DNA of 64,000 nucleotides from Clostridium sp. (GTDB lineage Bacteria > Bacillota > Clostridia > Clostridiales > Clostridiaceae), in the NCBI RefSeq assembly GCF_017888565.1, contig NZ_JAGHFX010000058.1, positions 310,001 to 374,000 on the forward strand, in the 5' to 3' direction. The notes under the pieces are model-generated. The model was not told the origin of the DNA and ran no database searches. It saw only the letters and a list, made by a program, of their open reading frames with translations. The translations under genes were made by a program, and so were the position numbers. Every line of letters starts with the position of its first letter. Within the stretch, counting starts at the first letter, position 1. Below are positions 47,559-61,421 of the stretch, piece by piece.

Positions 47559-47579
47559 TTGGTGCCGGCAGAGGGAATC
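47559..47579. repeat. attL core (copy of tRNA-Leu 3' end)
   Basis: 21 bp TTGGTGCCGGCAGAGGGAAT plus C, identical to 61337-61357. It corresponds to the CCA end, acceptor stem and part of the T-arm of tRNA-Leu. The match breaks at 47580. Confidence 0.9.
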
Positions 47580-47682
47580 AAAATATCAATTTTGGTACAA
47601 GTATTAAATAACTCTGTAATTTTGATATTTAAAGGGTTTATACCATTTCGCAAATTATAATATTTTTATTAATTGTTACACT

Positions 47683-47709
47683 AGTTGTAACAAAAAGTGT
47701 AACAAAAAA
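47683..47709. promoter_or_regulatory. Left arm-type integrase binding repeat
   Basis: A 27-bp stretch with two TGTAACAAA units, matching 61251-61277 at 26 of 27 positions in the same orientation. A further inverted TTGTTACA lies at about 47673-47680. Confidence 0.65.
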
Positions 47710-47733
47710 ATAGGCTGATATAAATATACCAAC

Positions 47734-48912
47734 CTATGCAAACATATTATTTATCTTATCATATTCTTTAATATCTTTATGTTTATTGACTTCTGCATAA
47801 ACTCCCATAGTAACAGATATATCAGTATGGCCTACCCAGTTCATTATAGTTTTTAAATTAATATCGTTACTTATACAGTTAGTAATAAATATATGTCTTA
47901 AACTATGGAAATGTATATCAGTTTTTATTTCAGCCTTCTTAAGAGCTGCTTTTAAACGCCTATTAGGTTGTTTATTATCTAAATAATCACCATTTTCCTT
48001 ACAGAAGATTAATTTATTATCAAAATATAACTCTCCAAGCCTAAGTTTATTTTCTTTATTATTTTTGATAAGAGATTTGAGTATAGGAGTAAGTAAAGAT
48101 GGAAAAGGAACTTCTCTTATACTCTTTTTAGTCTTAGGAATAGTAACTCTATTTTCATAGATCTTCTTACCTTCCTTAGTACGTTCTCCAGTCCATACAT
48201 ATTTAACAGATTTATTTATTCTTATAACTCTATTATCAAAGTCTATATCCTTTTCTTGTAGAGCCATAGCCTCACCTAGACGAAGTCCACACATTAAGCC
48301 TAATAATATTATTCCCTCGAGTTTATCTCCTTGTAGAGCTTTTATTAAGGCTTTTTGCTCATCTTCTGAAATATAGTTTTCTTTTTCTTCTATAACATCA
48401 TGATTTTTAGGATAAACTATACCTCTAGTAGGATTATTCTTAACTTTATTTATAGTAATAGCGTAATCAAAGCATTTACCAATAGCACGATTAAGATTTT
48501 TAATTTGTGATAAAGTATGTTTTTCTAATAATTTATTAGTTATTTTTTGAAGATATAAAGTATCTACATCAATTAATTTAACATCATTTAATCCTTTAGT
48601 AGGTTTTATATATAATCTATATATACCTTCAATTCTTTCAAAGGTAGACGGCTTTAATTCTTGTTTTTTAATATTCCATATCCAATCATAAAAGAAGTTT
48701 CCTAAAGTGGAATTATCGCTATTTATCGTATGTGTTTCTTGGTATTCTTTTAATTTGGCTTTAGCTTCCTTTTGAGTTTTACCATATATGACTTTTCTTT
48801 TAGGTTTTCCAGTTAGAGGGTCATATCCTTTAAATATAGCAATACGCCAGTATTTTATACCATTTCTAGTTACCCACCCGGCAGAGCCTTCACCATTAGA
48901 CCTTTTAGCCAT
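47734..48912 (-). CDS. int: Tyrosine integrase of the island
   Basis: 392 aa from the second ATG (48912), with AAGGAG nine bases upstream. Three domains typical of phage/Tn916-like integrases: an N-terminal AP2-like arm-binding domain (RKVIYGKTQKEAKAKLKEYQ), a SAM-like core-binding domain (about 60-160) and a catalytic domain. Catalytic residues are visible: Arg in GLMCGLRLGEAM, His-x-x-Arg in FHSLRHIFIT, His in WVGHTDISVT and Tyr in MGVYAEV. It points at the adjacent attL core, 155 bp away. It should integrate the island into the tRNA-Leu gene. Confidence 0.95.
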   Translation of the reverse strand: MAKRSNGEGSAGWVTRNGIKYWRIAIFKGYDPLTGKPKRKVIYGKTQKEAKAKLKEYQETHTINSDNSTLGNFFYDWIWNIKKQELKPSTFERIEGIYRLYIKPTKGLNDVKLIDVDTLYLQKITNKLLEKHTLSQIKNLNRAIGKCFDYAITINKVKNNPTRGIVYPKNHDVIEEKENYISEDEQKALIKALQGDKLEGIILLGLMCGLRLGEAMALQEKDIDFDNRVIRINKSVKYVWTGERTKEGKKIYENRVTIPKTKKSIREVPFPSLLTPILKSLIKNNKENKLRLGELYFDNKLIFCKENGDYLDNKQPNRRLKAALKKAEIKTDIHFHSLRHIFITNCISNDINLKTIMNWVGHTDISVTMGVYAEVNKHKDIKEYDKINNMFA

Positions 48913-48942
48913 TATATACATCTCCTTTCTTATATTTTATGA

Positions 48943-49005
48943 TGTAGTGGTATTGACACTACATTTCCCCATTATGTTGGCGATAATTCCACACAAGTGG
49001 GGAAA
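48943..49005. promoter_or_regulatory. Two inverted repeats in the int promoter region
   Basis: TGTAGTG / CACTACA (7-nt centre, 48943-48963) and TTTCCCC / GGGGAAA (48964-70 and 48999-49005) lie end to end, just upstream of the int ribosome binding site. Possible operator or attenuator controlling the integrase. Confidence 0.45.
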
Positions 49006-49009
49006 GATT

Positions 49010-49043
49010 CGGAAAAAGGTTACCGAATATAATTAGGCAACCT
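49010..49043 (-). terminator. Terminator after the Uma2 gene
   Basis: On the minus strand AAGGTTGCC / GGTAACCTT with one mismatch, followed by TTTTTCC. Confidence 0.6.
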
Positions 49044-49050
49044 TAATAAA

Positions 49051-49626
49051 TTAAGTTAAGTCTAAAGATGAAAAATCAATATTAAGGTCTTTAAATATAG
49101 ATACTGGTACCACATCATCAAATGAATAGATATTAGGTGTATCATAGCCAGTATCAGTTAGGTTATAAACTAATATATTCTTTTTCATAGGGTTAATAAT
49201 CCAGTATTCTTGTACTTTATACTTTTCATATAAACCAGCTTTTCTTATATAGTCATTGCTAGGATTAAAAGGCGATACAACTTCTACAATCATATTTGGT
49301 GAGCCTGTGCAACCTTTATCAGTTAATTTAGACTTATCACATATAACAGATATATCGGGTTGAACTATATTCTTGCTACTATTAATACCCTCATTATCAT
49401 CAATAAGAATTACATCAAATGGAGCAGGATAGACTTCACAGGAGCCATTATTGGCTTTAGTATAGTTTTCTAGTTGGTTAGATACCTTCATAATTATTTT
49501 TTGATGTATTCTTGAAGGAGCAGGGCTCATATTATATATTTTTCCTTCAATAATCTCTATACGCTCATTTTCATCATAAGTAAGGTAATCTTTATAAGTA
49601 TAAGTTTTATTTTCCTTTGCTAACAT
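49051..49626 (-). CDS. Uma2 family (DUF820) restriction-endonuclease-like protein
   Basis: 191 aa with AGGAGA upstream. The Uma2 pattern is complete: YLTYDENERIEIIEGKIYNMSPAPSRIHQKI at the start, the PD-(D/E)XK core VQPDISVICDKSKL with the metal-binding Asp, MIVEVVSPFNPSNDYIRK as the E-x-x-S strand, KAGLYEKYKVQEYWIINP with the Lys, and a C-terminal beta strand. Uma2 proteins are PD-(D/E)XK nuclease-fold proteins; biological roles are unclear. It lies between int and the repressor, a position used for accessory genes. Confidence 0.88.
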   Translation of the reverse strand: MLAKENKTYTYKDYLTYDENERIEIIEGKIYNMSPAPSRIHQKIIMKVSNQLENYTKANNGSCEVYPAPFDVILIDDNEGINSSKNIVQPDISVICDKSKLTDKGCTGSPNMIVEVVSPFNPSNDYIRKAGLYEKYKVQEYWIINPMKKNILVYNLTDTGYDTPNIYSFDDVVPVSIFKDLNIDFSSLDLT

Positions 49627-49734
49627 AATAAAATCTCCTTTCTTATATTTAATATCTTCGTCTTAATTTCGGACTAAGTATAAAATGTAGTTACCTTTGA
49701 TTTTTTTTATAGTATCTACATATTAGTTTGGGGG

Positions 49735-50256
49735 TTATCTTTTAGTTAATTCAGCTAAATCATTAATAAGATTAGTTTGGTTTTTAATCAATTCATTAGC
49801 AGAAGGGACAGGAGAATCCTCTCTACCTTCAAATTTTATTGAAATTCCCAAATTATAAATATTGCGATATAAATCATGTATTAGGTTGAGTTTATCTAAA
49901 TTACCTTCTTTTGAATCAGAGAAAATTGTTAAAAACATTGTATCGACAATATTTGTAATTAATTTAGAAACTTTAGGGTTATCAGATAACTCAATTATTT
50001 TTGAAAGTGCTTGAAAATCATTGTGTAATATAACACTATTGAATTTTCGATAATCACTTCTACCTAAAATATAATCTGTTTGAACATTTAGGGCGTCAGA
50101 TAATTTTTCAATAGTTTCAAATTTGGGAATTCTATCTCCTCTTTCATACTTATTTATAGCAGATAGGGAAATTTTACTTTTATCAGACAATTCTCGTTGC
50201 GTTAAGTTTCTTTCAGTACGTAACTTTCTTATATTATTACCGATAGTATTATCCAT
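49735..50256 (-). CDS. XRE-family repressor of the island
   Basis: 173 aa with GGAGG. The N-terminus (IGNNIRKLRTERNLTQRELSDKSKISLSAINKYERGDRIPKFETIEKLSDALNV) is a classic lambda-repressor-like HTH. The C-terminal region (85-173) is helical and lacks an autocleavage (LexA) peptidase motif, so induction would need an anti-repressor or a helper-phage protein, as in Stl of SaPIs. It is divergent from the Cro-like gene across an operator region. Confidence 0.88.
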   Translation of the reverse strand: MDNTIGNNIRKLRTERNLTQRELSDKSKISLSAINKYERGDRIPKFETIEKLSDALNVQTDYILGRSDYRKFNSVILHNDFQALSKIIELSDNPKVSKLITNIVDTMFLTIFSDSKEGNLDKLNLIHDLYRNIYNLGISIKFEGREDSPVPSANELIKNQTNLINDLAELTKR

Positions 50257-50305
50257 GGTTAAAACCTCCTTACTTCAATTATAGCAACAAAAATATAGAA
50301 AGTAC

Positions 50306-50317
50306 ACACTTTTGTGC
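50306..50317. promoter_or_regulatory. Operator copy 1
   Basis: ACACTTTTGTGC, next to the -35 box of the rightward promoter. Confidence 0.75.
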
Positions 50318-50346
50318 TTGACATACACTTTTGTGCGTGATAATAT
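50318..50346 (+). promoter_or_regulatory. Rightward early promoter
   Basis: TTGACA, 17 bp, TAATAT. Operator copy 2 lies between the boxes, so repressor binding would block transcription of the Cro-like gene and everything downstream. Confidence 0.75.
50325..50336. promoter_or_regulatory. Operator copy 2
   Basis: ACACTTTTGTGC, same orientation as copy 1, centre 19 bp away (near two helix turns). Confidence 0.75.
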
Positions 50347-50357
50347 AAAATTAACAA

Positions 50358-50369
50358 GCACAAAAGTGT
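50358..50369. promoter_or_regulatory. Operator copy 3
   Basis: GCACAAAAGTGT, the inverted form, centre 33 bp after copy 2; lies between the promoter and the Cro-like start. Confidence 0.75.
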
Positions 50370-50386
50370 GTAAAGGTGGTGAGTAA

Positions 50387-50587
50387 ATGGGATTAAAATT
50401 AAAGATTAAAAGAATAGAAAAAGGTATTAAACAATGCGAGTTAGCAGAAAGAGTAGGAATTTCTAGATATTCATTATCAGCACTGGAAAGAGATAAGATA
50501 AAAAGTCCTAAATTAGAAGTTATGAAAAAAATAGCAAAAGTACTTGACACATCAGTTACTGAACTTTTTTTCAGTGAAGAAGAATAA
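50387..50587 (+). CDS. Cro-like XRE-family protein
   Basis: 66 aa, a single HTH domain (LKLKIKRIEKGIKQCELAERVGISRYSLSALERDKIKSPKLEVMKKIAKVLDTSVTELFF), with AAAGGTGGTGAG as ribosome binding site. Divergent from the repressor gene; both likely compete for the three operators between them. First gene of the island's rightward transcript. Confidence 0.85.
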   Translation: MGLKLKIKRIEKGIKQCELAERVGISRYSLSALERDKIKSPKLEVMKKIAKVLDTSVTELFFSEEE

Positions 50588-50735
50588 TTGTTGCTACTTA
50601 TGGCAATAAACATATCAAAAATCTTTCGCAACAAGTGGCGAAAATAAATCATATCTAAATGACACTACAGAGTAAGACAAAAATAAAGTGCAATGCTTTA
50701 TAGATATTAAATAGAGAAATGAAAGGATTGATATT

Positions 50736-51221
50736 ATGGCATATACAAAAAATGGAATGAATATGTATGTAGGTCGATATCGGGTGGTATGTGAATTTTG
50801 TAGAGAAACGTTAAAACCTTGTAAAGAGGATAATTATATCTATTGCAAGAATGGAGGTCAAATTTACCGTTTTGATGATGAAACCTTAGTTTACTATAAA
50901 GAAGGTAGAAATAAAGCAAATTTAACAGTAAATAGCTTAAAGTCGCAAGGAATTGAAATAATAAATAATAATTCAACAGATGAAGACTTAATGTTTAAGT
51001 TCTATGAAAAAGATATACATAAAATAGCTGATATTTTTGGAGCAAGAACATTAGGGGCAAATATAAAATCAGCTAGCAAGAGGAATTTAAAATTATTTGA
51101 ATGGTTCAATGAAAATAAACAGTATTATCTTGAAAAAGGACTAATAAAAGAAATTTCAGAAGAGAGAAAAGAACAAGCTAGAAAATCTCTTGAAAAATTT
51201 AGGGAGAGAATAAGCGAATAA
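50736..51221 (+). CDS. Hypothetical island protein with N-terminal cysteine motif
   Basis: 161 aa, ribosome binding site GAAAGGATTG. I do not recognise it. The first 45 residues contain CEFCRETLKPC and a later cysteine (YIYC), a possible zinc knuckle, followed by a RFDDETLVYY strand. The C-terminal half is basic and helical (KSASKRNLKLFEWFNENKQYYLEKGL). It occupies the place where antirepressor or early regulatory genes sit in related elements. Confidence 0.6.
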   Translation: MAYTKNGMNMYVGRYRVVCEFCRETLKPCKEDNYIYCKNGGQIYRFDDETLVYYKEGRNKANLTVNSLKSQGIEIINNNSTDEDLMFKFYEKDIHKIADIFGARTLGANIKSASKRNLKLFEWFNENKQYYLEKGLIKEISEERKEQARKSLEKFRERISE

Positions 51222-51347
51222 AGAGTTAAATTTAAATTTTAGAGCGTATTTAGGTATAAAACTATATTTAAATATTCAAAAGCTGAAATAGGAGCCTAAA
51301 AGCATTAATACTTAAATTTGTTTAATAAAATTATGGAGGGATAAAGA

Positions 51348-51578
51348 ATGGAAGAATTAGAACAACAACCAATAACAATACAAGAGTATAGAAAGAAAGT
51401 AGATAAATTAACTTGTAAAATTCCAGAACTTGCAGAAATGTTAGATATATCTGTAGATAAAGCAAGAAGATTAACACATATAGAAGGATTTCCTTGTATA
51501 CGTATGGGGAGAGATATAAGGATTATTTTAAGCAAATTAGATGAATGGTTATCAGAACATATCGGAGAAGTATTATAG
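51348..51578 (+). CDS. xis: Excisionase-family HTH protein
   Basis: 76 aa with GGAGGG. The core KIPELAEMLDISVDKARRLTHIEGFPCIRMGRDIRIILSKLDEWL is the MerR-like winged HTH of the excisionase/AlpA-type family (helix-turn-helix, then R.GR.IRI...LDEWL). It likely bends att DNA and directs the integrase to excision. Position early in the rightward transcript is as expected. Confidence 0.8.
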   Translation: MEELEQQPITIQEYRKKVDKLTCKIPELAEMLDISVDKARRLTHIEGFPCIRMGRDIRIILSKLDEWLSEHIGEVL

Positions 51579-51589
51579 GAGGTGTAGGC

Positions 51590-51691
51590 ATGGATATAAA
51601 AATATTTAGAGCATATGTGAAGTTATGTAAGGAATGGGACAAGCCTATTACATGGAGTGGACTTCATAATTTTAAAATGGCATTTAAGTAG
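51590..51691 (+). CDS. 33-aa hypothetical island protein
   Basis: AGGAGGTGTAGGC then ATG 51590. The product MDIKIFRAYVKLCKEWDKPI and then TWSGLHNFKMAFK is compact and basic, with aromatic residues. The very good ribosome binding site and the tight fit between neighbours support a real gene. Function unknown. Confidence 0.6.
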   Translation: MDIKIFRAYVKLCKEWDKPITWSGLHNFKMAFK

Positions 51692-51699
51692 GTGAGAAC

Positions 51700-52527
51700 T
51701 TGAATATTCCTTATCATAAAATAGATTCAAGAATACTTGAATATGAAATAGATAGTATAGAGTTTAAGTTTGGTATGTGGATTACAAAAAAAGAATTTGG
51801 GCAAAGGTTAAATAATAATAATCCATTACCTAAAGGACAATTTTTTATGAGTGTTAGAGTTGTTGCTAAGGATATAGAAATTACTGAAATGATTGCTAGA
51901 AGGTTAATAAAACAGTTTACAAAGTTAGATATTATAAGACTTGTAGCGAGTTCAAAAAATCCAAAACAAGGGTCGATTTATGAGTATTTAGTACAGGTTG
52001 AAAACAACACAGTAGAAAACATAGTAGTAACACAGTTAGAACACAGTAAAAGTGAGAGAACAAAAGGACTTGAAGATAATAAAGAACACAGTAAAAACAC
52101 ATATAATAACACAGTAGATAACACATCTAAAAATAAAAATAAAAGAAAAGAAAATATATATAATACTATTTTTGATTTTTGGATAAGTAAAAATGTTAGA
52201 AAGCATAGAGCATTAACTAATGAAATGAAAAAAGCTATAGATAAAGCATTAAAGGAATACTCTAAAGATGAAATATTGGAGGCTATTAATAACTATGGCG
52301 ATATGTATAATGACCTTAATTATCAATGGTGTAACTATCAATGGGGATTAAATGAATTTCTAGTAAGAAAGGATAAAGATGGTATAAGACAAATAGGATT
52401 GTTTTTAAATGATGGTAGCAAGTATTTAAATTACTTAAAAGTCAATGAAATGAAGACAAAGAAAGTGGAACAAAGTAATGATAGTAAAAGTATAGAAATA
52501 GAGGAGTTTTTAGGAGGAAGAGTGTAG
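51700..52527 (+). CDS. DnaD-like replication protein
   Basis: 275 aa from TTG 51700, AGGTGAG upstream. The N-terminal half looks like a winged-helix replication protein (FGMWITKKEFGQRLNNNNPL, then MIARRLIKQFTKLDIIRLV). A low-complexity linker rich in Asn/Lys/Ser follows, then a C-terminal helical region (IYNTIFDFWISKNVRKHRAL ... QWGLNEFL) similar to the conserved end of phage DnaD/DnaT-like loaders. It lies directly ahead of the helicase gene, as helicase-loader genes do. Confidence 0.65.
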   Translation: MNIPYHKIDSRILEYEIDSIEFKFGMWITKKEFGQRLNNNNPLPKGQFFMSVRVVAKDIEITEMIARRLIKQFTKLDIIRLVASSKNPKQGSIYEYLVQVENNTVENIVVTQLEHSKSERTKGLEDNKEHSKNTYNNTVDNTSKNKNKRKENIYNTIFDFWISKNVRKHRALTNEMKKAIDKALKEYSKDEILEAINNYGDMYNDLNYQWCNYQWGLNEFLVRKDKDGIRQIGLFLNDGSKYLNYLKVNEMKTKKVEQSNDSKSIEIEEFLGGRV

Positions 52528-52528
52528 A

Positions 52529-53839
52529 ATGAAATCTTATTATGACAAGGATTTAGAGGAAAAATCTTTAGGAATTTATATAAGTAACCCTAATTTGCTA
52601 TATGAAAGTAGATTAAAGACAGATTATTTTCATAATACCCAAAATGGAATAATGTTTGAAACTATGATGAGATTGAAAAGTCAAAATAAAGATATAAATA
52701 TCATAACTGTAACTAAAGAGTTATCTAAAAACAAGAATAGTAAATGGTTACCTTCTGATATTAGTGATTTATTAGAACATAGTATGTATAGGTCAGCCAT
52801 AGAAAGTATTGAAAGAGAAATAATTTCACTATATGAAAAAAGAAATTTTAAAGAGCTAATACAAAAGTCTTTAATTAGATTAGAAGAGGAAGAGAACTTT
52901 GATATTGTAAAGGCTGACTTAATAAAAAATATAGAAACTAAATCAAGTGATGATATACCTATTATATCTATTACAGAATGTGTTGAGAAAGCCATAGAGA
53001 TAACAGAGGAGGCTTATAACTCTAATGGAAAAATAACAGGTATGGAAAGTGGATATAAGCATTTAGATGCCGTATTAAATGGATTTGAAAAGCCGAGTTA
53101 TATAGTTATAGGAGCTAGACCGGGAGTAGGGAAAACTGCATTTTCTTTAGAATTAGCAAAGAGATTATCGGAAAGAAATAATATATTGTATTTCTCTTTA
53201 GAAATGCCATTTGAGCAATTAGGGCAAAGATTATTAGCAAATACAACAAGTGTTCCACTTAAAAATATAAAAAATGGAAGAGTTACAGGAGAAACCTTTA
53301 ATAGACTTTTATATGGACCTAGTAAGTTATCAAATAACAAATGTTATGTAATAGAGAAAGAAAATTTAAAGATAGAAGATCTAGTAAGTATATGCACATC
53401 ATATAAACGAAAAAATGGGCTAGATGGAATAATAGTAGATTATTTTACTTTATTAAAAAGCTATAAATCATTTAGGGATAATAGGCTTTTATATAACTAT
53501 ATTAGTGAAGAACTAAGAATGTTATCTAAGAAATTAAAAATAAATATAATTTTATTGGCTCAATGCAATAGAAAGGCAGATGAAAAGAGAGATTTACAAT
53601 TAAATGATTTGAAAGAAACTGCTAATTTAGAGCAGGACGCTAATGTTGTAATGTTCTTAGAACAAAAAGATGATATAAGACCTTTAAAAGAAGGAGAGCC
53701 TAGAGAAGATTATATAAGAGCAACTATAAGAAAAAATAGAAGTGGAGAGAATAATATAGGAATAATGTTTAGGTATTATAAAGGCACTCAAATATTAGAT
53801 GAAGAAAAAGCTATTAGAATAAAGAAAGATGATAATTAA
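52529..53839 (+). CDS. DnaB-type replicative helicase
   Basis: 436 aa hexameric helicase, one base after the DnaD-like gene. N-terminal helical domain (1-110), linker, then RecA-like motor: Walker A GARPGVGKTAFSLELA, H1a LYFSLEMP, Walker B in DGIIVDYFTLL, H3 ILLAQCNRKADEKRDLQLND and H4 ATIRKNRSGENNI. Like phage and satellite helicases it would drive element replication after induction. Confidence 0.92.
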   Translation: MKSYYDKDLEEKSLGIYISNPNLLYESRLKTDYFHNTQNGIMFETMMRLKSQNKDINIITVTKELSKNKNSKWLPSDISDLLEHSMYRSAIESIEREIISLYEKRNFKELIQKSLIRLEEEENFDIVKADLIKNIETKSSDDIPIISITECVEKAIEITEEAYNSNGKITGMESGYKHLDAVLNGFEKPSYIVIGARPGVGKTAFSLELAKRLSERNNILYFSLEMPFEQLGQRLLANTTSVPLKNIKNGRVTGETFNRLLYGPSKLSNNKCYVIEKENLKIEDLVSICTSYKRKNGLDGIIVDYFTLLKSYKSFRDNRLLYNYISEELRMLSKKLKINIILLAQCNRKADEKRDLQLNDLKETANLEQDANVVMFLEQKDDIRPLKEGEPREDYIRATIRKNRSGENNIGIMFRYYKGTQILDEEKAIRIKKDDN

Positions 53840-53842
53840 GAG

Positions 53843-54022
53843 GTGATAAATATAGGTAAGACAGAAGAATTAATATATAAAGCCTTAATAATAGGCGAGA
53901 AGTATGTACAAGCTGATAAGCCTACTAAAATTGAAGTTGGTAAGCTTATGACCAGTAATAGAAGAGTTAAAAAAAGAGGTATAAAAAGAAAAAATGCTTA
54001 TAGATACTACCAATATCTATAA
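53843..54022 (+). CDS. 59-aa hypothetical island protein
   Basis: Open frame from GTG 53843, or from a later non-ATG codon at about 53852, after AAGAGGTGAT. Basic C-terminal end (RRVKKRGIKRKNAYRYYQYL). It continues the operon without a gap. The start codon is uncertain, and no family is recognised. Confidence 0.45.
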   Translation: MINIGKTEELIYKALIIGEKYVQADKPTKIEVGKLMTSNRRVKKRGIKRKNAYRYYQYL

Positions 54023-54025
54023 GCA

Positions 54026-54084
54026 AGGAGCTATCCAATAGGATACCTTTCATTCAGCAATTTAAGTGTATCCTATAAGCTCCT
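54026..54084 (+). ncRNA. Strong two-part stem-loop between small island genes
   Basis: AGGAGCT (54026-32) pairs with AGCTCCT (54078-84) and ATAGGATAC (54038-46) with GTATCCTAT (54068-76); bulges of 5 and 1 nt separate them and the loop is 21 nt. There is no T-run after it. It lies 12 bp before the next ribosome binding site. Candidate regulatory RNA structure or processing site. Confidence 0.5.
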
Positions 54085-54110
54085 AAATGTAAATAGGAGG
54101 AATTAGGCAA

Positions 54111-54323
54111 GTGAAGGTTTCAATAAATAATAAAAAAATATTTAAATATAAAGGTGTAGTTCATATAGTTTCAGAAATAAAAGAAGATATTAAAGGCTTT
54201 ACTGGTTGCTATCAGAAGAGAGAAGGTATTAAGTATTGTCTTATAAATTCTAATTTAAGTCCAATGAAAAAGAGAAGAACACTACATAATTTAATTAAAG
54301 ACAAGCATTTAACTAGGGGGTAG
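54111..54323 (+). CDS. 70-aa hypothetical island protein
   Basis: Starts at GTG 54111, with AGGAGG nine bases before. The C-terminal part (YCLINSNLSPMKKRRTLHNL) faintly recalls the start of ImmA/IrrE peptidases but has no HExxH, so no activity is proposed. Two Cys, basic. Confidence 0.55.
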   Translation: MKVSINNKKIFKYKGVVHIVSEIKEDIKGFTGCYQKREGIKYCLINSNLSPMKKRRTLHNLIKDKHLTRG

Positions 54324-54326
54324 ACT

Positions 54327-54470
54327 ATGGCAAAGATACAAATTAGATATGAGAATGAAATAGAAAAGCTTAAGATATTAGAGGTTTTATCTAAGGGAAT
54401 TAAAATAAAGAAGATAAGTGAGACTATTAAAATTGGTAGATATTATAGGGTTTATGTAGAAATAGAGTAA
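54327..54470 (+). CDS. 47-aa hypothetical island protein
   Basis: ATG 54327 after AGGGGG. Product is basic and strand-rich (MAKIQIRYENEIEKLKILEV, then GIKIKKISETIKIGRYYRVYVEIE). Such small proteins are frequent in the early regions of clostridial phages. Unknown role. Confidence 0.6.
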   Translation: MAKIQIRYENEIEKLKILEVLSKGIKIKKISETIKIGRYYRVYVEIE

Positions 54471-54516
54471 TAGATAAAAAGATTAGTATAGTTTTGTAAG
54501 TGGAAGGAGAAATATT

Positions 54517-55431
54517 ATGATAGTTAAATATAAAAGTAAAGAGCAAATAATAGATGAAAAGATGGAGAGTTTAAGAGAGTTTTTTTCAAAAAAAGATTTT
54601 AATCGTTGGGTTAGAATAAATAAGAATGTAGCAGAAGGAAATGATAGAATTGCTATTAGTAATAATTTCTTAAAGTTAAAATTTAAACTTGTGAATATAT
54701 ATAAGGATTTAGATAATTATCGCAAGGAAAAGAAAAAGGCAAGTAAAGTATTAGAATTAGAATTTATAGATAAAAATACTGAAAGACAATACAAAGAATA
54801 TATTAACAAGCTAGATAATCTTATAGAAAATTATAATAATCAATTAAATTCATTAGGATATGTATTAGTTAATTTATATGTACCTATGTTAGATAAATAT
54901 TTTAATAAAAAAGAGATAGTTCAACTTATAGGTGGATCATATGAGCAAATAAAAAAGATTGATGAGTGGTATAAAAAAAGAGAAACAGGAACAAGGTCAA
55001 TTACAGATTCTTATATTATTCATCATGGGGAATATAGATGGAGAAAGGGAAGAAGTAAAGACTTTATAGATTGTCCTAATTGGGAAATGCCTTTATTTAA
55101 TTGTATGAGTGACTATATGTGGAAAGCTATTAATGACAATCCTAAAACAAGAGCAGAAATGGACAATAAGTTTGAAGAAATGTTCCAAGATTCTATGGTG
55201 AATGTAACTATTGATTCAAATGGGAATATTATTGCGACAGAGAAGGTAATACAAGAATTAAGCATAAAAGAATTAGTGATAGATTATCAAGGTAAATTTA
55301 TAAGTGAATTAAAAAAAGACAATATATTTGATAATAAAACATATAGAGTTAAAAGGCTTGAAAATAATGTATATTGTATAGTTGATAAAGATAATAAAAT
55401 GATAGAAAAAATATATAGGAAAAACATTTAA
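54517..55431 (+). CDS. Hypothetical island protein (304 aa)
   Basis: RBS GGAAGGAG. Not recognised. The first 110 residues are coiled-coil-like and charged (YKDLDNYRKEKKKASKVLEL). The middle holds a cluster of aromatic and charged residues (SYIIHHGEYRWRKGRSKDFI, CPNWEMPLFNCMSDY). The last 90 residues are strand-rich. No membrane segment. It is the largest unassigned gene on the island and is followed by a good terminator. Confidence 0.6.
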   Translation: MIVKYKSKEQIIDEKMESLREFFSKKDFNRWVRINKNVAEGNDRIAISNNFLKLKFKLVNIYKDLDNYRKEKKKASKVLELEFIDKNTERQYKEYINKLDNLIENYNNQLNSLGYVLVNLYVPMLDKYFNKKEIVQLIGGSYEQIKKIDEWYKKRETGTRSITDSYIIHHGEYRWRKGRSKDFIDCPNWEMPLFNCMSDYMWKAINDNPKTRAEMDNKFEEMFQDSMVNVTIDSNGNIIATEKVIQELSIKELVIDYQGKFISELKKDNIFDNKTYRVKRLENNVYCIVDKDNKMIEKIYRKNI

Positions 55432-55448
55432 AAATATAAGGATATAAT

Positions 55449-55500
55449 ACCACAAGAAAATATATAAGCCTAAAAGCTGAATATTATCTTGTGGTTTTTT
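55449..55500 (+). terminator. Island operon terminator
   Basis: ACCACAAGA / TCTTGTGGT hairpin followed by TTTTTT. It ends the first rightward operon. Confidence 0.85.
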
Positions 55501-55610
55501 ATTAAATATAAATATCCGTTGGGTACAGAACGGTAAAAAAAGAAAATAAAGAAAATAAATATTATAATGGTATATAGGATATATCCAAATGAATTATATG
55601 TGAGGAAAAG

Positions 55611-55784
55611 ATGACAGAGAAAGAGTATTATAAAAATTATAGAGAGAAAAATAGAGAAAAATTAAACGCTTATCAAAGGGAATGGCGGAAGAGAAATAAA
55701 GAAAAAATTAAAGAGTATAGGCGAAGATATTGGGGAAATAAATCTAAAAATTTAATAATGGAAGGTGAGAAAAATAATGAATAA
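55611..55784 (+). CDS. 57-aa highly charged island protein
   Basis: ATG 55611 after GAGGAAAAG. The product is a repeat of KNR/REKN units (KNYREKNREKLNAYQREWRK, RNKEKIKEYRRRYW). The pattern is typical of the N-terminal region of phage HNH endonucleases and of short phage-encoded proteins. It overlaps the next start by 8 bp. Confidence 0.6.
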   Translation: MTEKEYYKNYREKNREKLNAYQREWRKRNKEKIKEYRRRYWGNKSKNLIMEGEKNNE

Positions 55785-56502
55785 AAGAGCTAAGAAATTT
55801 GAAGAGATAGAAGAAATTGAAATAATTTCAAAGGCGTTACAAGGAAGTAAAATATCAAGCATATCAAAAGAATACCTTTCAAACGAGAAAACAATAAGAG
55901 AAGTATTATATCGACATGGTTACAAGTATGATAAGCAACTAAAGAAGTGGTATCACAAAGAGTCACATAAAGAATCCATATATATATTTAAAAACTGTGA
56001 TATTGAGGAAGAAATTCAATATTTATCAGAAAATAGATATTATGAAAGATACATTAATCCATATCCGGATAGTTTGATGAATGATGAAAATATATCAATA
56101 GGTAAAGAAATGTACAAAGAACTTGAAGAAATGGCAGAAGAATATGGGGCAGATTCCCCAGAGGAGTTAATAGAGTTAATATTACTTAGATTCTTAGATA
56201 AAAATAGAAAAATAGATAAAAGTAAAGAGTTTGGAATTAAATATTTAAAGCAAGAAAGCTATGATGAAGAAGAAATTAAAATATTAATAAAGTATCATGA
56301 AAAAGTTAATATCTCCACTTTAGAAAATTTACTGTGGGAGGAAATGGATTCTTCTGATTCAAAGGGAGCGCTAGAAGAGATAAAAGGATTTTATATAAGA
56401 GAAATATCCAATAAGAAAAAAATAGATATTAATAAATTAGAGAAAATGGATTTTTATAATTTAAAAGAATTATATACAAAATTAAATAATAAGGGAGTTT
56501 AA
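55777..56502 (+). CDS. Hypothetical island protein, possible DNA-binding
   Basis: 241 aa from ATG 55777, with GGAAGGTGAG six bases upstream. The N-terminus reads like an HTH of the homeodomain/transposase sort (EIISKALQGSKISSISKEYL, NEKTIREVLYRHGYKY). A segment at about 110-150 (ISIGKEMYKELEEMAEEYGA) resembles a ribbon-helix-helix. Not assigned to a family. Coupled with the flanking genes. Confidence 0.5.
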   Translation: MNKRAKKFEEIEEIEIISKALQGSKISSISKEYLSNEKTIREVLYRHGYKYDKQLKKWYHKESHKESIYIFKNCDIEEEIQYLSENRYYERYINPYPDSLMNDENISIGKEMYKELEEMAEEYGADSPEELIELILLRFLDKNRKIDKSKEFGIKYLKQESYDEEEIKILIKYHEKVNISTLENLLWEEMDSSDSKGALEEIKGFYIREISNKKKIDINKLEKMDFYNLKELYTKLNNKGV

Positions 56503-56503
56503 T

Positions 56504-57199
56504 ATGAAATTAAGAGAAGTAACAGAAGAAAGAAAAAATTATTTTGAAAACAAGGTAATTTCTACATTGAATAATTACAATGATATGATTACCGAAACAG
56601 ATAAAATGTTATTTAGATATGGAGTTATACATTACAATCAAACTCAAAATAAATATTCACTACAATTTGCTTCAGAACAGAAGGAAGCACTTAAAGTAGA
56701 AATAAAAAACCTTAATGTATCAACATTGGACAAGGTAATATCAGACTTGAAAGAGATAAAAGAAAATTATATTAATGAAATAGCTCCACAAATAGCAACA
56801 ACAGATCCTTTAGAATTGAATTTTATAGAGAAAGAATTAAAAGTAATGAGTGATTCAGAACTTTTAGATTATTATAAGGAAAATTATTTAGATAAAAATA
56901 TTACTAGACTTGTAAAGATTGAATATAGGGGTAGAAAGGGACTTATAAATGGGAATAGGATAATAATAGATTTACCAGACTATGATGTTAAAGATGATAT
57001 AACAATTAACTTAGATACTCAAATAAAGAAAGTAGTAGGATTAAGACAAGTCGCAAGCAATATGTGTAGCTTTGTAGGGGAAATAGATTCAACAGGAACA
57101 CCGGTGCCAAAACTTATTCCTTGGAATACTGTTTTTGCTAACGTAGAAAAGAGAAATATGCATGAGATAACAAAAGTAAGTTTAAAAGATTTTATTTAA
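56504..57199 (+). CDS. Hypothetical island protein (231 aa)
   Basis: ATG 56504 follows the preceding stop by one base; site AAGGGAG. I do not recognise the family. The middle holds a helical region with YKENYLDKNI, then a strand-rich C-terminus (YRGRKGLINGNRIIIDLPDY, KVVGLRQVASNMCSFVGEID). No transmembrane segment. Co-transcribed with neighbours. Confidence 0.55.
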   Translation: MKLREVTEERKNYFENKVISTLNNYNDMITETDKMLFRYGVIHYNQTQNKYSLQFASEQKEALKVEIKNLNVSTLDKVISDLKEIKENYINEIAPQIATTDPLELNFIEKELKVMSDSELLDYYKENYLDKNITRLVKIEYRGRKGLINGNRIIIDLPDYDVKDDITINLDTQIKKVVGLRQVASNMCSFVGEIDSTGTPVPKLIPWNTVFANVEKRNMHEITKVSLKDFI

Positions 57200-57211
57200 A
57201 GGGGAAAATTT

Positions 57212-57400
57212 ATGGATGAACTAAAACAATATATTGAAGAAAGAATTAAGTATATAACAAGCACTAGAGGAAAAATGAGAGTAGAGGCTTACGAATTAGG
57301 ATATTTATATGAAAAGTTTATAATAGAGAAATCTGAATCAGAAGATAAAGAGCAGTTAAGAGAAAATTTAATCAATTTAATTGAAGTAAATAATAAATAA
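57212..57400 (+). CDS. 62-aa hypothetical island protein
   Basis: AGGGGA before ATG 57212. Helical and charged (MDELKQYIEERIKYITSTRG, VEAYELGYLYEKFIIEKSES). Small helical proteins of this kind occur between the early and late regions of clostridial prophages. Unknown. Confidence 0.6.
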   Translation: MDELKQYIEERIKYITSTRGKMRVEAYELGYLYEKFIIEKSESEDKEQLRENLINLIEVNNK

Positions 57401-57423
57401 GAAAGTATTTAATAATTTATAAC

Positions 57424-57458
57424 GATAATGGAGTAACTTATTTGGTTACTCCATTATC
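57424..57458. repeat. 14-bp perfect inverted repeat
   Basis: GATAATGGAGTAAC / GTTACTCCATTATC with a 7-nt loop. Only a weak T-run follows, so terminator or operator before the second recombinase. Confidence 0.6.
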
Positions 57459-57479
57459 AATAATATAAGGTAGGGGGTT

Positions 57480-58025
57480 ATGGTGAGAGTAGATCCAATT
57501 AAGAATAGAAATAATGTAATAAAAGTTATAAATGAACTTAAAAAAGGAGAGGAAAGGAATGTAATATTATTTAAAATAGGAATATATACAGGATTAAGAA
57601 TAGAAGATATTTTAAGATTAAAAGTAAAAAATATAAATGGTAATACCTTAGAGATTCAGCAAGGAAAGACTAAGAAATATAAGAGGATACAGTTAAATGA
57701 TGACCTTAGAAAAAGCCTAAAAGCTTATATAAAAGGCAAGAATGAAGAAGAATATATTATAAAAAGCAGAAATGGAAGTAATAAACCTTTAAGCTATACA
57801 CAGGCATATAGAATAATAAAATCAGCTATAAAGAAAGCTAGGATAAAAGGTAATTATGGAACACATTCACTAAGAAAAACATATGCTTATGCTTTATATG
57901 AAAATAACGATTTAAGTATAGTACAAGGAGCATTAAACCACGATAATCAATTAACTACATTGAAATATATTGGTGTTACAGATGAGGAAATAAATAGAGC
58001 CACAATGAATATAAAATTTGATTAA
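57480..58025 (+). CDS. Short tyrosine recombinase (catalytic domain only)
   Basis: 181 aa, start ATG 57480 or GTG 57483 (AGGGGG better spaced for GTG). Catalytic residues visible: Arg in GIYTGLRIEDIL, Lys in GKTKKYKRIQL, His-x-x-Arg in GTHSLRKTYAY, His in ALNHDNQLTTLKYIGV with the final Tyr. The N-terminal core-binding domain is missing. Small recombinases of this kind sit before the packaging genes of clostridial phages; here none follow. Confidence 0.85.
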   Translation: MVRVDPIKNRNNVIKVINELKKGEERNVILFKIGIYTGLRIEDILRLKVKNINGNTLEIQQGKTKKYKRIQLNDDLRKSLKAYIKGKNEEEYIIKSRNGSNKPLSYTQAYRIIKSAIKKARIKGNYGTHSLRKTYAYALYENNDLSIVQGALNHDNQLTTLKYIGVTDEEINRATMNIKFD

Positions 58026-58557
58026 AAATATAAATGAATGTAATTTTTTAATGCAAGATTTTGCATTGAGTGTCAGAGTAGAAAATAAAATATTAATTAG
58101 GCAAGATAAATAAAGGATTTATAAGCATAAAAATGAATGCAATAGTTTATATAAAACTTACATTAAAAAAGTAAGAGGAAACCCTTATAAATGCAAGGCT
58201 AGCTGGCAAAAAGATTTTAATTTATAAAAAGTAATAATTTTAGTGCATTATCAATTAGAAAGAAATTTATACAAATTTTTTTCGGTTTAACTCAACTAAA
58301 ATCGGGAACACAAGTAAATACAGGGCTAGACAGAGAAAATTTAGACAAAAACTTTTATTATAGCTTTGGGAAATAAAATGTAAAAAATAAACAATTAAAT
58401 GTATCAAAAAACGAACGTTTAACAATACCTAAAGAAATAAAGAGAAAACACCTCATAAATGGCTTAAAACCGTTAATAAATATGTATCATTAGGATTGTA
58501 TAGTTTGATGATACATATTATAATTAACTTATAATATTATTAGAGCGAGGGTTAAAA
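58026..58557. other. Gene-free island stretch
   Basis: About 530 bp between the two recombinase genes. No reading frame with a ribosome binding site is seen; AT-rich, possibly decayed. The final part holds a 12-bp inverted repeat (58479-58519). Confidence 0.5.
58479..58519. promoter_or_regulatory. 12-bp inverted repeat upstream of the resolvase gene
   Basis: AATATGTATCAT / ATGATACATATT with a 17-bp centre, 38 bp ahead of the resolvase start. Such repeats occur in res sites and operators of serine resolvases. Confidence 0.5.
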
Positions 58558-59166
58558 ATGATAGTAAGTTATTTAAGAGTAAGTACATTAAATCAAGAAG
58601 TAGGAAGACAAGAATATCAATTAGATAAATTAAATATTAAGTTTGATAAGGAATATATAGATAAATGCACTGGAAAGAATAAAGAAAGACCACAATTAAT
58701 TAAAATGATTAATGAATTAAAAGAGGGGGATATTCTTTATTGTGAAAGTATCAGCAGATTAGGAAGGAATCTAAAAGACTTAATTGAGATAGTAGAACAA
58801 TTAATTAATAAAGGTGTTAGAGTTATTTTAGTAAAAGAAGGTATCGACACCAGTACAACAACTTATAAGTTATTGATAGGTATATTTGGAGCAATAGCAG
58901 AAATGGAAAGAGAAACTATCCAAGAAAGAACATTACAGAGTATAGAAAGATTAAAAGAAATAAAATCCAATACTGGTGAAGTTGCGACTAAGAGTGGTAA
59001 ATGGTTTGGTAGAGAAGAAAAGAAAGTTAGTGATCTACCGAAAGACTTCAAAAAGTATTATGATAAAATGACCAATAAAGAAATAACTAAGGTTGAAATG
59101 GCTAAGTTATTAGGAGTTGGAAGAGCAACATTGTATCGTTGGATAGCTTTATATGAGAATAAATAG
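58558..59166 (+). CDS. Serine recombinase (resolvase/invertase family)
   Basis: 202 aa. Catalytic Ser9 in VSYLRVSTLNQEVGRQEYQL, then YCESISRLGRNLKDLIEIVE (Arg-rich active site) and FGAIAEMERETIQERT (E helix). The C-terminal HTH (MTNKEITKVEMAKLLGVGRA, TLYRWI) binds DNA. A gene for resolution or for acquiring cargo; the adjacent inverted repeat may be its site. Confidence 0.92.
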   Translation: MIVSYLRVSTLNQEVGRQEYQLDKLNIKFDKEYIDKCTGKNKERPQLIKMINELKEGDILYCESISRLGRNLKDLIEIVEQLINKGVRVILVKEGIDTSTTTYKLLIGIFGAIAEMERETIQERTLQSIERLKEIKSNTGEVATKSGKWFGREEKKVSDLPKDFKKYYDKMTNKEITKVEMAKLLGVGRATLYRWIALYENK

Positions 59167-59276
59167 TATTTATAAAGGTTATCAAGAACAATCATATAGA
59201 AGCTTTTTAATAATTCTAAGGAGCTGTTTGAAAGTAATAGATGGGAAATTTAAAATAATAGAGTTACATTTTATTG

Positions 59277-59306
59277 ATAGACACTTATAGAAATATAGGT
59301 GTCTAT
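59277..59306 (+). terminator. Weak terminator-like hairpin
   Basis: ATAGACAC / GTGTCTAT with a 14-nt loop, upstream of the membrane-protein cargo gene. Confidence 0.5.
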
Positions 59307-59341
59307 TATTGTATAATTATGGTATGGAGGGGGGAGAATGA

Positions 59342-59926
59342 ATGGAAGAAAATGATATTAGAGATACTATAGAAGAAACAGTAAATAATAGTATGAAAAA
59401 ATATTTTAAGAATGGAACTAAGAAATTAAATTTATACACAATACTGCAAGTAATGTGGATGATAGAATTGTACTATTTGGGAACAAATGCAATTTATGAG
59501 TTTTTAGTTGAAAATCCGAAAATAAATAAAGATTTTAATATTGCTACTATTTATCTACCAAAAGAGATTGAAACTTATAATAACTTAATTAAAGAATATT
59601 TTTCATCATGGAGTAGTTTTGTTATATTCTTTGCAATAGCTATGATTATTTGTGGAATATGTTTTGCATTTATACGATTAATCCCAGTGTTAGGAGACTA
59701 TAGATTAATATACTCATATTCATCTTATGGAATAGTAGTAGGAGGATGGTTAATTTTAATATACTGTACATACTATTTATATTTAAATATAGGGATATTA
59801 TTTATGACACTCCCTATATTTATAAGTATGGGGGTAATTGCTATAGAGAATTTAAAAAAGTATTTAAAAAGGAGTCCTATAATTAAGTTAATAGAAGCAT
59901 TTTATCCAGATGCTAGGTATTGGTAA
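59342..59926 (+). CDS. Cargo: predicted multi-pass membrane protein
   Basis: 194 aa, site GGAGGGGGGAGA. Hydrophobic segments at about 31-52, 98-122, 132-152 and 154-175, so three or four helices. The N-terminus is acidic and soluble (MEENDIRDTIEETVNNSMKK), and the end is basic (KYLKRSPIIKLIEAFYPDAR). Not recognised. Standing alone between the resolvase and the next cargo pair, it is a typical place for superinfection or accessory functions. Confidence 0.6.
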   Translation: MEENDIRDTIEETVNNSMKKYFKNGTKKLNLYTILQVMWMIELYYLGTNAIYEFLVENPKINKDFNIATIYLPKEIETYNNLIKEYFSSWSSFVIFFAIAMIICGICFAFIRLIPVLGDYRLIYSYSSYGIVVGGWLILIYCTYYLYLNIGILFMTLPIFISMGVIAIENLKKYLKRSPIIKLIEAFYPDARYW

Positions 59927-60338
59927 ATAAAGAAGTGATAGTATGTATTAAATAAAAGGAATAAAAAGTATATTTAATAATTCTATTATATAAAAGTATA
60001 ATATTAGAATTTAATAATAAGATATCGAAATTATACTATTTCGTAGTTAGTATAGCGAAATAGTATTTTTATTTATTAAAGTTTACTAATATTAAACTAA
60101 AATTAGAAAGTTTGATTTTAAAGGAATAGCTTAAATAGGTGCTTTAAAGTAATTTCGCTAAATAGTGATTATACGAAATACTATTGAAAAATATGATTTA
60201 CAACTTTATAGATAGGATTCCTCATAAGATTAAAGAACTAGTATAGAGTAATAGAATGTAATTTTAAAGGGATAAAATAATCAATCTTTACTAATAGGAA
60301 AAATAAATATAAAATTGTAAATATAAGGAGGTGATATT
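59927..60338. other. Gene-free stretch with repeated CGAAATAGTAT-like motifs
   Basis: About 410 bp. ATACTATTTCG / CGAAATAGTAT forms an inverted repeat at 60033-60066 with a T-run, a likely terminator for the membrane-protein gene. A related CGAAATACTATT lies near 60175-60186. No reading frame is supported. Confidence 0.5.
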
Positions 60339-60494
60339 ATGCCAATTACGCCTAAAAATAATAGTACAAGCTCTAATAACCAATCTACTAATAACAACAG
60401 ACAGTCAACTGGTTATTTTGAAAAAAGAAGTATTAATGAGGGAACTAAATTAGTAAGCCAGCCATCTTACGCAAAACCACCAAGAAAAGAATAA
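60339..60494 (+). CDS. Cargo: 51-aa disordered protein
   Basis: ATG 60339 behind the near-ideal site AAGGAGGTGAT. The protein is disordered, rich in Asn/Ser/Thr/Gln (NNSTSSNNQSTNNNRQSTGY), then a short motif (FEKRSINEGTKLVSQPSYAK, PPRKE). It lies 12 bp ahead of the DUF6338-like gene and is surely co-transcribed. Short low-complexity proteins of this type seem to accompany DUF6338-like genes, but I cannot verify it here. Confidence 0.7.
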   Translation: MPITPKNNSTSSNNQSTNNNRQSTGYFEKRSINEGTKLVSQPSYAKPPRKE

Positions 60495-60506
60495 CGGAGA
60501 ATAATA

Positions 60507-61178
60507 ATGAGTCCAGATAATATAAAAGGATACATTGAAATTATCCCAATGCTATTTTTATATATAGTTCCAGGATATTTGTTTTTTAGGGTTTTTAATT
60601 TTGTACTAAATAAAAAGAATGAAAAACTTACTCAAAATATAGTAGAATACATAATTTGTAGTTATGTAATAATGGCTATAGTAAGATTTATACTTGGCTT
60701 ATTTTTTAATGAAGTAGTTATTGAGTTACCAGAAGTTATCGTAAGTATATTATTATTAAGTGGTATATTGGGATACGTAGGAAGTAGATTAATTTTATCA
60801 GATTGGTTTTCTGGGAAAATATTAAATAAATTAAATATAACTAGAACAATCAATAATAATATTTTTGAAGAATATTTCAATGATAAAAAAGGATTATGGG
60901 TTAAGATATACTTGAAAGATGATAAATTAGTTTATTATGGTGCTATTGTAGGCTTTGATGTAAAAGAAAAATATGAAGATGGATATATAATTATAAACCA
61001 ATATGAAGTTTATAAATATGATAAGAGTACTATTTATGATAGTACATTAGATATTAAATGTAAGGTGAATAATTTAGCATTTATAAAAGTCGCTAATATA
61101 AGTAGAATTGAAGCTAGGTATAGCGAAGATAGTAAATTACTTTGCAAGATATTAAATAACTCACAAAAATATACTTAG
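60507..61178 (+). CDS. Cargo: DUF6338-like membrane protein
   Basis: 223 aa with three N-terminal helices (MLFLYIVPGYLFFRVFNFVL; about 50-68; about 78-98) and a cytosolic domain. The pattern of VPGYLFF in helix 1 and, after the helices, LWVKIYLKDDKLVYYGAIVG (W-V-x-V-x-L-K-D-x-x-x-x-x-G) matches DUF6338. Function unknown. Last gene of the island before attR, with its own terminator. Confidence 0.6.
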   Translation: MSPDNIKGYIEIIPMLFLYIVPGYLFFRVFNFVLNKKNEKLTQNIVEYIICSYVIMAIVRFILGLFFNEVVIELPEVIVSILLLSGILGYVGSRLILSDWFSGKILNKLNITRTINNNIFEEYFNDKKGLWVKIYLKDDKLVYYGAIVGFDVKEKYEDGYIIINQYEVYKYDKSTIYDSTLDIKCKVNNLAFIKVANISRIEARYSEDSKLLCKILNNSQKYT

Positions 61179-61219
61179 TAATGGAATTATATAAATATGA
61201 ATAGTTATATTAAGTATTA

Positions 61220-61250
61220 AAGAGAATTCTAGAAATAGAGTTCTCTTTTT
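61220..61250 (+). terminator. Terminator of the island cargo
   Basis: AGAGAATTCT / AGAGTTCTCT hairpin followed by TTTT. Confidence 0.85.
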
Positions 61251-61277
61251 AGTTGTAACAAATAGTGTAACAAAAAA
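61251..61277. promoter_or_regulatory. Right arm-type integrase binding repeat
   Basis: Same orientation and 26 of 27 positions identical with 47683-47709 (two TGTAACAAA-type units). Confidence 0.65.
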
Positions 61278-61326
61278 TAAAAATGACTTTATCAAAAGAT
61301 ATTTAAACCTAGTGATAAAGCCATTT
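61270..61326 (-). terminator. Element-borne terminator for tRNA-Leu
   Basis: AAATGGCTTTATCA / TGATAAAGTCATTT on the minus strand, followed by a T-rich run. It lies just beyond the tRNA 3' end, inside the island. Confidence 0.75.
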
Positions 61327-61336
61327 CTTATAATTA

Positions 61337-61357
61337 TTGGTGCCGGCAGAGGGAATC
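61337..61357. repeat. attR core within tRNA-Leu 3' end
   Basis: 21-bp direct repeat of 47559-47579; keeps the tRNA gene intact. Confidence 0.9.
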
Positions 61358-61421
61358 GAACCCTCACGGTAAAACCGCATGATTTTGAGTCATGTGCGTC
61401 TGCCAGTTCCGCCATGCCGAC
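61338..61421 (-). tRNA. tRNA-Leu (anticodon CAA), attachment site of the island
   Basis: Reading the minus strand: acceptor stem GTCGGCA / TGCCGGC, D-arm GGCGGAACTGGCAGACGC, anticodon stem CATGA / TCATG with loop CTCAAAA (anticodon CAA, decoding UUG), class II long variable arm CGGTTTTACCG, T-arm GAGGG / CCCTC with TTCGATT, discriminator A and encoded CCA. The gene is complete, 84 nt. Its 3' 20 bases are duplicated at the left end of the island. Confidence 0.95.

Follow-up and report, generated by a model that had tools for sequence, protein, structure and literature searches.

The DNA analysed here (the window) is a stretch of 64,000 nucleotides from contig NZ_JAGHFX010000058.1 of a Clostridium sp. 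It contains a 13.8-kb integrated mobile element (47559-61357; hereafter the island) that lies in a leucine-tRNA gene. An earlier note on this DNA had likened the island to the phage-inducible chromosomal islands (PICIs), and had named a decayed prophage as the main alternative. In what follows, handles beginning with G, C and L denote the genomes, contigs and loci that were compared, G000 being the host itself.

Limits and gene content of the island

Each end of the island carries one copy of a perfect 21-bp direct repeat, TTGGTGCCGGCAGAGGGAATC, which occurs exactly twice in the window (Table 1) and was matched in none of 100 shuffled sequences with up to three mismatches allowed. The right copy forms the 3' end of the tRNA, since ARAGORN places a tRNA-Leu(caa) at 61338-61421 on the minus strand. 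The flanks (47451-47579 and 61358-61500) were joined and compared with the tRNA sites of sister genomes, and the joined sequence matched the uninterrupted sites of G006 (L113; 91% identity over 218 bp) and G015 (L115; 82% over 236 bp) straight across the junction; in these genomes the tRNA runs directly into the sequence found to the left of attL in the window. The matched part left of the junction is short (~50 bp in G006 and ~70 bp in G015); beyond it the genomes diverge, and prophage-type genes were seen by eye further left of the tRNA site in G006. This conserved piece of the left flank contains an inverted repeat followed by a run of T, and reads like the terminator of the tRNA. Other terminator-like hairpins lie near both ends of the island, one on the minus strand after the integrase (47737-47710) and one on the plus strand (61219-61248). 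The repeats, the tRNA end and the empty site in sister genomes fix the limits to the base, just where the earlier note had drawn them.

Twenty-two open reading frames (ORFs) were listed for the island, with a coding density of 82%, and 19 of them were scanned with Pfam and PHROGs, the other three being 47-51 aa long. The integrase, a Uma2-like protein and the repressor are encoded leftward. The rightward order is Cro, a 161-aa protein, the excisionase, a DnaD-like protein, DnaB, small genes, the 304-, 245- and 231-aa proteins, two recombinases, a membrane-like protein and a DUF6338-like protein. Profile searches recovered all that had been proposed for the early region, namely an integrase beside the left end, a divergent repressor/Cro pair, an excisionase-like gene, a (weak) DnaD-like gene and DnaB, and added the Uma2/PDC-S03 gene and two recombinases, one a short tyrosine and one a serine recombinase. 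They also bear out the reported lack of capsid, tail, terminase and conjugation genes: neither Pfam nor PHROGs recognised a terminase, portal, capsid, tail, lysis, relaxase, coupling-protein or conjugation gene in the 19 ORFs, and phmmer likewise hit no TerL, portal or capsid gene in the island; on these searches it lacks the terminase, portal, capsid and tail genes of a complete prophage.

Several of these genes recur elsewhere. The excisionase, which scores 29.6 bits against a cut-off of 28.8 for the NCBIfam family "excise" (TIGR01764), has homologues of 65-66% identity in G063 and G003. The DnaD-like gene has no match in Pfam or NCBIfam and has homologues in G002 and G035; no primase was found among the island genes that were matched, the replication genes being this one and DnaB. 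A 57% homologue of the Uma2-like protein adjoins the integrase of the G087 element. The 47-aa ORF is 42-87% identical to its homologues in G063, G003, G035 and G066, and 74% identical over residues 10-47 to that of G002. Relatives of the serine recombinase (41-76%) occur in 8 of the 68 genomes of the genus, and phrog_11432, the family of the 304-aa protein, in 5 of the 68 (host included in both counts) and in none of 50,697 phage records.

Table 1. Features of the island and of related elements (window positions unless a locus is named)
Feature	Position	Strand	Evidence
attL, left repeat copy	47559..47579	+	repeat search; undisturbed site in relatives
Tyrosine integrase, 395 aa	47734..48921	-	PF00589 8.3e-27; phrog_1 2e-70; relatives 69-95%
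Uma2-family nuclease-like protein, defence-candidate cargo	49051..49626	-	PF05685 2e-29; PADLOC PDC-S03 7.7e-55
CI-like repressor	49735..50256	-	HTH_3 1.8e-18
Cro-like regulator, divergent from repressor	50387..50587	+	HTH_3 8.4e-14
161-aa early protein	50736..51221	+	no match in Pfam, PHROGs, PADLOC, NCBIfam
Excisionase/AlpA-like HTH_17 protein	51348..51578	+	PF12728 6.5e-9; TIGR01764 just over cut-off
DnaD-like replication initiation/loader gene	51700..52527	+	weak: phrog_16167 3.4e-5, phrog_186 4.2e-4
DnaB-like replicative helicase	52529..53839	+	PF03796 1.8e-54
47-aa ORF	54327..54470	+	homologue in each of five relatives first compared
304-aa middle protein, phrog_11432	54517..55431	+	1.1e-81
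245-aa protein	55765..56502	+	weak RHH_1 match below cut-off; 30% homologue in G002 element
231-aa protein	56504..57199	+	no recognisable relative; no match in Pfam, PHROGs, PADLOC, NCBIfam
Short tyrosine recombinase without N-terminal domain	57480..58025	+	phrog_216
Serine recombinase with HTH tail	58558..59166	+	PF00239 1.1e-35
194-aa protein, membrane-like (by eye), cargo	59342..59926	+	no family above cut-off (Pfam, PHROGs, PADLOC, NCBIfam)
Hairpin repeat, non-coding	60015..60215	+	also in second satellite-like element, three host prophage contigs
DUF6338-like protein, membrane-like (by eye), cargo	60507..61178	+	below Pfam cut-off: 6.6e-5, 23 bits vs 26.5
attR, right repeat copy = 3' end of tRNA-Leu(CAA)	61337..61357	+	ARAGORN + repeat search
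tRNA-Leu(caa), host gene rebuilt by island	61338..61421	-	ARAGORN; Rfam tRNA at 61341-61421
Tape-measure genes of two satellite-like elements	L105:12385-14997 and L022:16053-18455		no other recognised virion gene

Related elements in Clostridium

A search of 206 genomes of the family with the integrase (E <= 1e-130) found relatives of 69-95% identity in eight, the host included, and thus brought out elements of similar size with clear limits and the same early layout. Four of the eight are repeat-bounded elements of 13.4-15.9 kb, all at tRNA-Leu(CAA): the island itself and those of G063 (integrase 95%, 13.7 kb), G003 (C. paraputrificum; 77%, 13.4 kb) and G002 (75%, 15.9 kb). They share the tRNA and the integrase family and differ in their middle regions. 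The other four lie on contigs shorter than 8 kb (G026 and G072), on a 16-kb contig with phage-like early genes (G205; by eye), or in a small element whose integrase and the marker gene next to the tRNA are ~51 kb apart (G027). What the earlier note had named as fatal to its reading, a complete structural module in a close relative, was seen in none of the eight, of which these last four cannot settle the matter. Among the 50,697 phage records there is no integrase of at least 60% identity, the fifteen listed matches being ~30% identical. In viral contigs, the one close integrase (75%) sits on a 15,053-bp contig that turns out to be nothing but the G002 element (100% across 11.2 kb), and an alignment scan of the same set gave 40 further loci of at most 47% identity. 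No near-identical island was found in phage or plasmid records at megablast sensitivity, nor a second copy in the host genome, where only patches are shared with C66 and the prophage contigs.

In all, eight repeat-bounded elements of 12.1-16.5 kb were delimited in Clostridium, the island included. Five occupy tRNA-Leu(CAA) (the island and those of G063, G003, G002 and G035) and three tRNA-Arg (G066, from C. nigeriense; G000:C66; G065:C11). The host thus carries a second satellite-like element, of 12.1 kb in a tRNA-Arg(acg) on C66 (L271, ~6.9-19.0 kb of the locus), which uses the same kind of tRNA as the C. nigeriense element. Gene comparison of six elements, together with the loci around a sigma-like factor (12 of the 68 genus genomes), gave a shared plan of integrase, repressor/Cro, replication genes, small middle genes and then variable genes. 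The 47-aa ORF is present in all six; the sigma-like factor is missing from the island, G063 and G002. Left out of the eight were the elements or regions of G029 (20.2 kb, 17-bp repeat), G069 (which spans 36.7 kb and has both TerS and TerL), G085 (whose repeat was unconvincing), G087 (compared by gene content, not by its ends) and G022, G031 and G073 (contig edges or odd order), as well as the four loci of G026, G072, G205 and G027. Those of G022 and G031 carry tape-measure genes, and G031 also has scaffold and full capsid genes.

Virion genes were sought in six-frame translations with phmmer, using 7 TerL, 5 portal and 5 capsid proteins from clostridial prophage loci as references, which were mostly labelled by eye and do not cover every phage type. 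The only match in the eight elements was a capsid fragment in G002, and the control stretches (C62, C71 and G069) all matched. PHROGs scans took in part of the relatives' ORFs. Within what was searched, five of the eight elements, the island among them, have no virion gene. The remaining three carry isolated ones. G063 and G003 contain intact tape-measure genes of 870 and 800 codons (phrog_1535, 6e-158 and 7e-170), and in a scan of large ORFs seven further ones from the two elements matched no PHROG. The two proteins are 37% identical to each other, that of G003 being 52% identical to one on G006:C8 and that of G063 40% identical to one on the prophage contig G000:C60; since each is closer to a protein of another genome, the genes were probably captured separately. 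The G002 element encodes TerS (phrog_309, 1.8e-33) and a prohead protease (PF04586, 3.2e-32), with no TerL or portal found by phmmer, and only the C-terminal half of a capsid gene, the N-terminal half being absent from the fetched stretch.

Three side observations are recorded here. The right ends of the G066 and G035 elements (L121:14682-16884; L014:18711 to L015:1145) encode a G2P-like HUH Rep together with an FtsK-like ATPase, an arrangement that looks like a fusion of satellite modules with those of rolling-circle plasmids. L251 (G011:C27, ~7.6-19.3 kb) holds another island without recognised virion genes (by eye); it has an integrase, a repressor, an 819-aa primase-like protein, a serine recombinase 72-74% identical to that at 58558-59166, and a three-gene ATPase cluster resembling a defence system. 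Just outside attL, the window has a phrog_32441 gene (46625-47431; 2.2e-94) with a J-domain-like C-terminus (by eye). Because homologues occur in the G069 region and, for the C-terminal part only, in the G035 element, this gene may be left from an earlier element at the site. In and around it (46576-47463) lie three GTAGTTAC-N16-GTAACTAC repeats and one imperfect copy; similar repeats occur twice at the G069 homologue (L016:13776 and 14461), singly in L105 and L021, and twice in L180.

Comparison with known satellites and prophages

The regulators of PICIs are divergently transcribed (stl/str type), and PICIs usually carry a primase or Rep. The island has such a divergent pair in its two HTH_3 genes, and fits PICIs in size and boundaries, with 13.8 kb, 21-bp att repeats and its own integrase. 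Published accounts give 7-20 kb for phage satellites and a mean of 9.5 kb for PICIs. The island resembles PICIs and the related staphylococcal pathogenicity islands (SaPIs) in size, in an integrase at one end, in its regulators, in a putative replication module, in accessory genes placed next to the integrase and at the opposite end, and in the lack of structural genes (PMC13376191, PMC10803314). It differs in having no recognised terS or capsid-redirecting gene, in carrying a DnaD-like gene and DnaB rather than a primase or Rep, and in its second tyrosine recombinase and serine recombinase. With the phage-inducible chromosomal minimalist islands (PICMIs), the minimalist satellites of Vibrio, it shares an integrase, an AlpA-type HTH protein (the PICMI model list includes PF12728), defence cargo and the lack of a recognised capsid-remodelling or terS gene; as described, PICMIs are among the smallest satellites, integrate at fis and use a DUF3987/DUF5906 primase, whereas the island sits at tRNA-Leu and has no Pfam match to DUF3987 or DUF5906. 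The G002 relative resembles the capsid-forming PICIs (cf-PICIs) in its TerS and prohead protease genes and its partial capsid gene, but the island has no capsid gene, and that of G002 is about half-length with neither TerL nor portal found. Integrative mobilizable elements (IMEs) and integrative conjugative elements (ICEs) are set apart by relaxase or conjugation genes, for which the island has no Pfam match.

Three contigs of the host, C62, C60 and C71, are candidate helper prophages; C62 has TerL by profile, and TerS, portal, capsid and sheath genes by eye. In C62 and in G065:C3 a short tyrosine recombinase and a serine recombinase, separated by a gap, stand immediately ahead of a gene that is TerS-like (by eye). 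This order recurs in the island; TerL, portal and capsid genes follow in those prophage regions, and cargo in the island. This common order fits descent from, or exchange with, such phages. A cos or pac site common to the island and C62 was sought in their recombinase gaps and is unproven. The two gaps share one 16-bp word, GGTTYAACTCAACTAA, which G065:C3 lacks despite the same layout, and their best local alignment was equalled by 437 of 500 shuffles under strict scoring and by 0 of 300 under permissive scoring.

The hairpin repeat at 60015-60215 consists of TATTTCG-N12-CGAAATA, then GTTTA-N7-TAAAC, then a second inverted ATTTCG...CGAAAT. Five distinct copies were found in the host, in the island, in its second satellite-like element and on C62, C60 and C71, and two of the prophage copies sit between a TerS-like gene and TerL. 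A role as packaging signal was considered and judged the less likely one: a model of the hairpin matches in 17 of the 68 genus genomes (a count made with stricter filters, by which weak matches are lost), many of the matches lying between ordinary chromosomal or plasmid genes (by eye), and no copy was detected in four of the eight complete elements. No Rfam family reaches its gathering score (the one sub-threshold match, STnc450, has 19.2 bits against 37), and the folding of the RNA exceeds that of shuffled sequences only slightly (z -1.9 and -2.4). It is more likely a scattered intergenic repeat.

Nature of the island

Judged from its sequence, the island probably derives from a phage and is a satellite-type element that functions in the manner of a PICI. 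A helper phage that is derepressed or infects the cell would relieve the repressor, Xis and the integrase would excise the island, and the DnaD-like protein would load DnaB so that the circle replicates. The DNA would then be packaged into helper particles and delivered to a new cell, where the integrase would rebuild the tRNA; the Uma2/PDC-S03 gene at the left end and the genes at the right end would be cargo, perhaps for defence. That the island is satellite-like is well supported by its precise limits, occupied and undisturbed sites, size, gene order, similar relatives and the lack of recognised virion genes. One half of what the earlier note proposed stands, on limits, size, order and relatives; the other half, membership of the PICI family, is unproven, no terS or capsid-redirecting gene having been recognised. 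The island is not to be filed as a PICI, because a packaging/interference module was sought and none was found.

Several findings weigh against the satellite reading. No terS, capsid-size or capsid-redirecting gene was recognised in the 19 scanned ORFs, and no cos or pac site was identified in the island. The half-length capsid gene of G002 looks like decay. The 36.7-kb repeat-bounded region of G069, which its sigma gene and its phrog_11432 gene relate to the elements, contains TerS, TerL (both by eye; the TerL matches that of G020 at 5.7e-48) and a baseplate-hub-like gene. In G020, phrog_11432 belongs to a prophage that also has genes for head and tail, and it lies upstream of one that is TerS-like (by eye). 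A search with the phrog_2 TerL profile, matched in 10 of 11 genomes and in none of seven elements (in six of those genomes), proves little, since the profile also missed the terminases of C60, C71 and G069, and it was replaced by phmmer. The synonymous divergence (dS) of the integrase from its G063 copy, 0.397, is close to that of a neighbouring host gene, 0.356, which allows a long residence at the site with the middle replaced. Finally, the passage from the recombinase pair straight to cargo is what a truncated prophage would show.

Much of this would suit a reduced (cryptic) prophage, the remnant of a temperate phage with this tRNA as its site, that has lost its whole late region and keeps early genes and cargo, perhaps excisable and with no route between cells. 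Besides the order of the recombinases and the half capsid gene, such an origin could explain why relatives of phrog_216, like those of phrog_11432, also occur in prophages with structural genes (by eye), and why single late genes differ among the relatives, as independent deletions would leave. It is still the main rival, as the earlier note had it, but we regard it as doubtful: it is weakened by eight repeat-bounded elements of like size at several tRNA genes, by tape-measure genes that two species keep open at full length although no further tail gene was recognised there, and by the four bounded integrase relatives, none of which is a full prophage, as well as by the lack of a close integrase in the phage records. 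Moreover, the integrase differs from the G063 copy by a nonsynonymous divergence (dN) of 0.026, giving a dN/dS of ~0.07, which indicates purifying selection. This ratio, the narrow size range and the recurrence of the elements apparently favour an intact element over a decayed one.

An IME-like element, moved by a conjugative plasmid or by natural transformation and with its switch and replication genes taken from a phage, appears improbable. It would agree with the lack of a recognised packaging gene and with the HUH Rep and FtsK-like ATPase of G066 and G035, but the island has no recognised relaxase or coupling protein, and the terminase, protease, capsid and tape-measure genes of its relatives would be useless for conjugation. 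A stationary defence island with a phage-derived integrase, to which the PDC-S03/Uma2 cargo and the like synonymous divergence of integrase and host gene could point, is more improbable still, in view of the undisturbed site in sister genomes, the Xis and replication module, and the different cargo that related elements carry, whether at this site or in other tRNA genes.

A bolder proposal, which we hold only tentatively and think rather unlikely, is that the satellite-type elements form an unnamed Clostridium clade, which shares the early module and the 47-aa gene and in many cases the sigma-like factor, and each member of which pirates a different single step of its helper. Some would act on tail assembly (length or DNA delivery) and not on the capsid, through a tape-measure protein that the clade acquired from different phages on two or more occasions; others would use TerS and capsid genes. 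Members in which no virion gene was recognised, such as the island, would depend either on a protein so far unrecognised (55765-57199) or on a signal in the DNA that the helper also has, for which the hairpin would be a candidate.

Searches of the open-access literature, judged by title and start of abstract, brought up no paper devoted to phage satellites of Clostridium, and none on a satellite with a tape-measure gene and no other tail genes. A C. botulinum genome paper speculates that an element, MGE-PaFe-9508, is a satellite phage (PMC10868621), which puts the idea in print for the genus; this element is plasmid-borne, unlike the island. One clostridial prophage paper mentions PICIs in passing.

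As a kind, the island is a variant of the phage satellites, and the clade that surrounds it is of interest. If these elements are mobile, they add to the clostridia a clade of satellites with precise ends. Because the host has two such elements and possible helpers in the same genome, excision and packaging are directly testable. Elements that carry a tape-measure gene but no further tail genes would suggest that satellites can pirate the assembly of tails.

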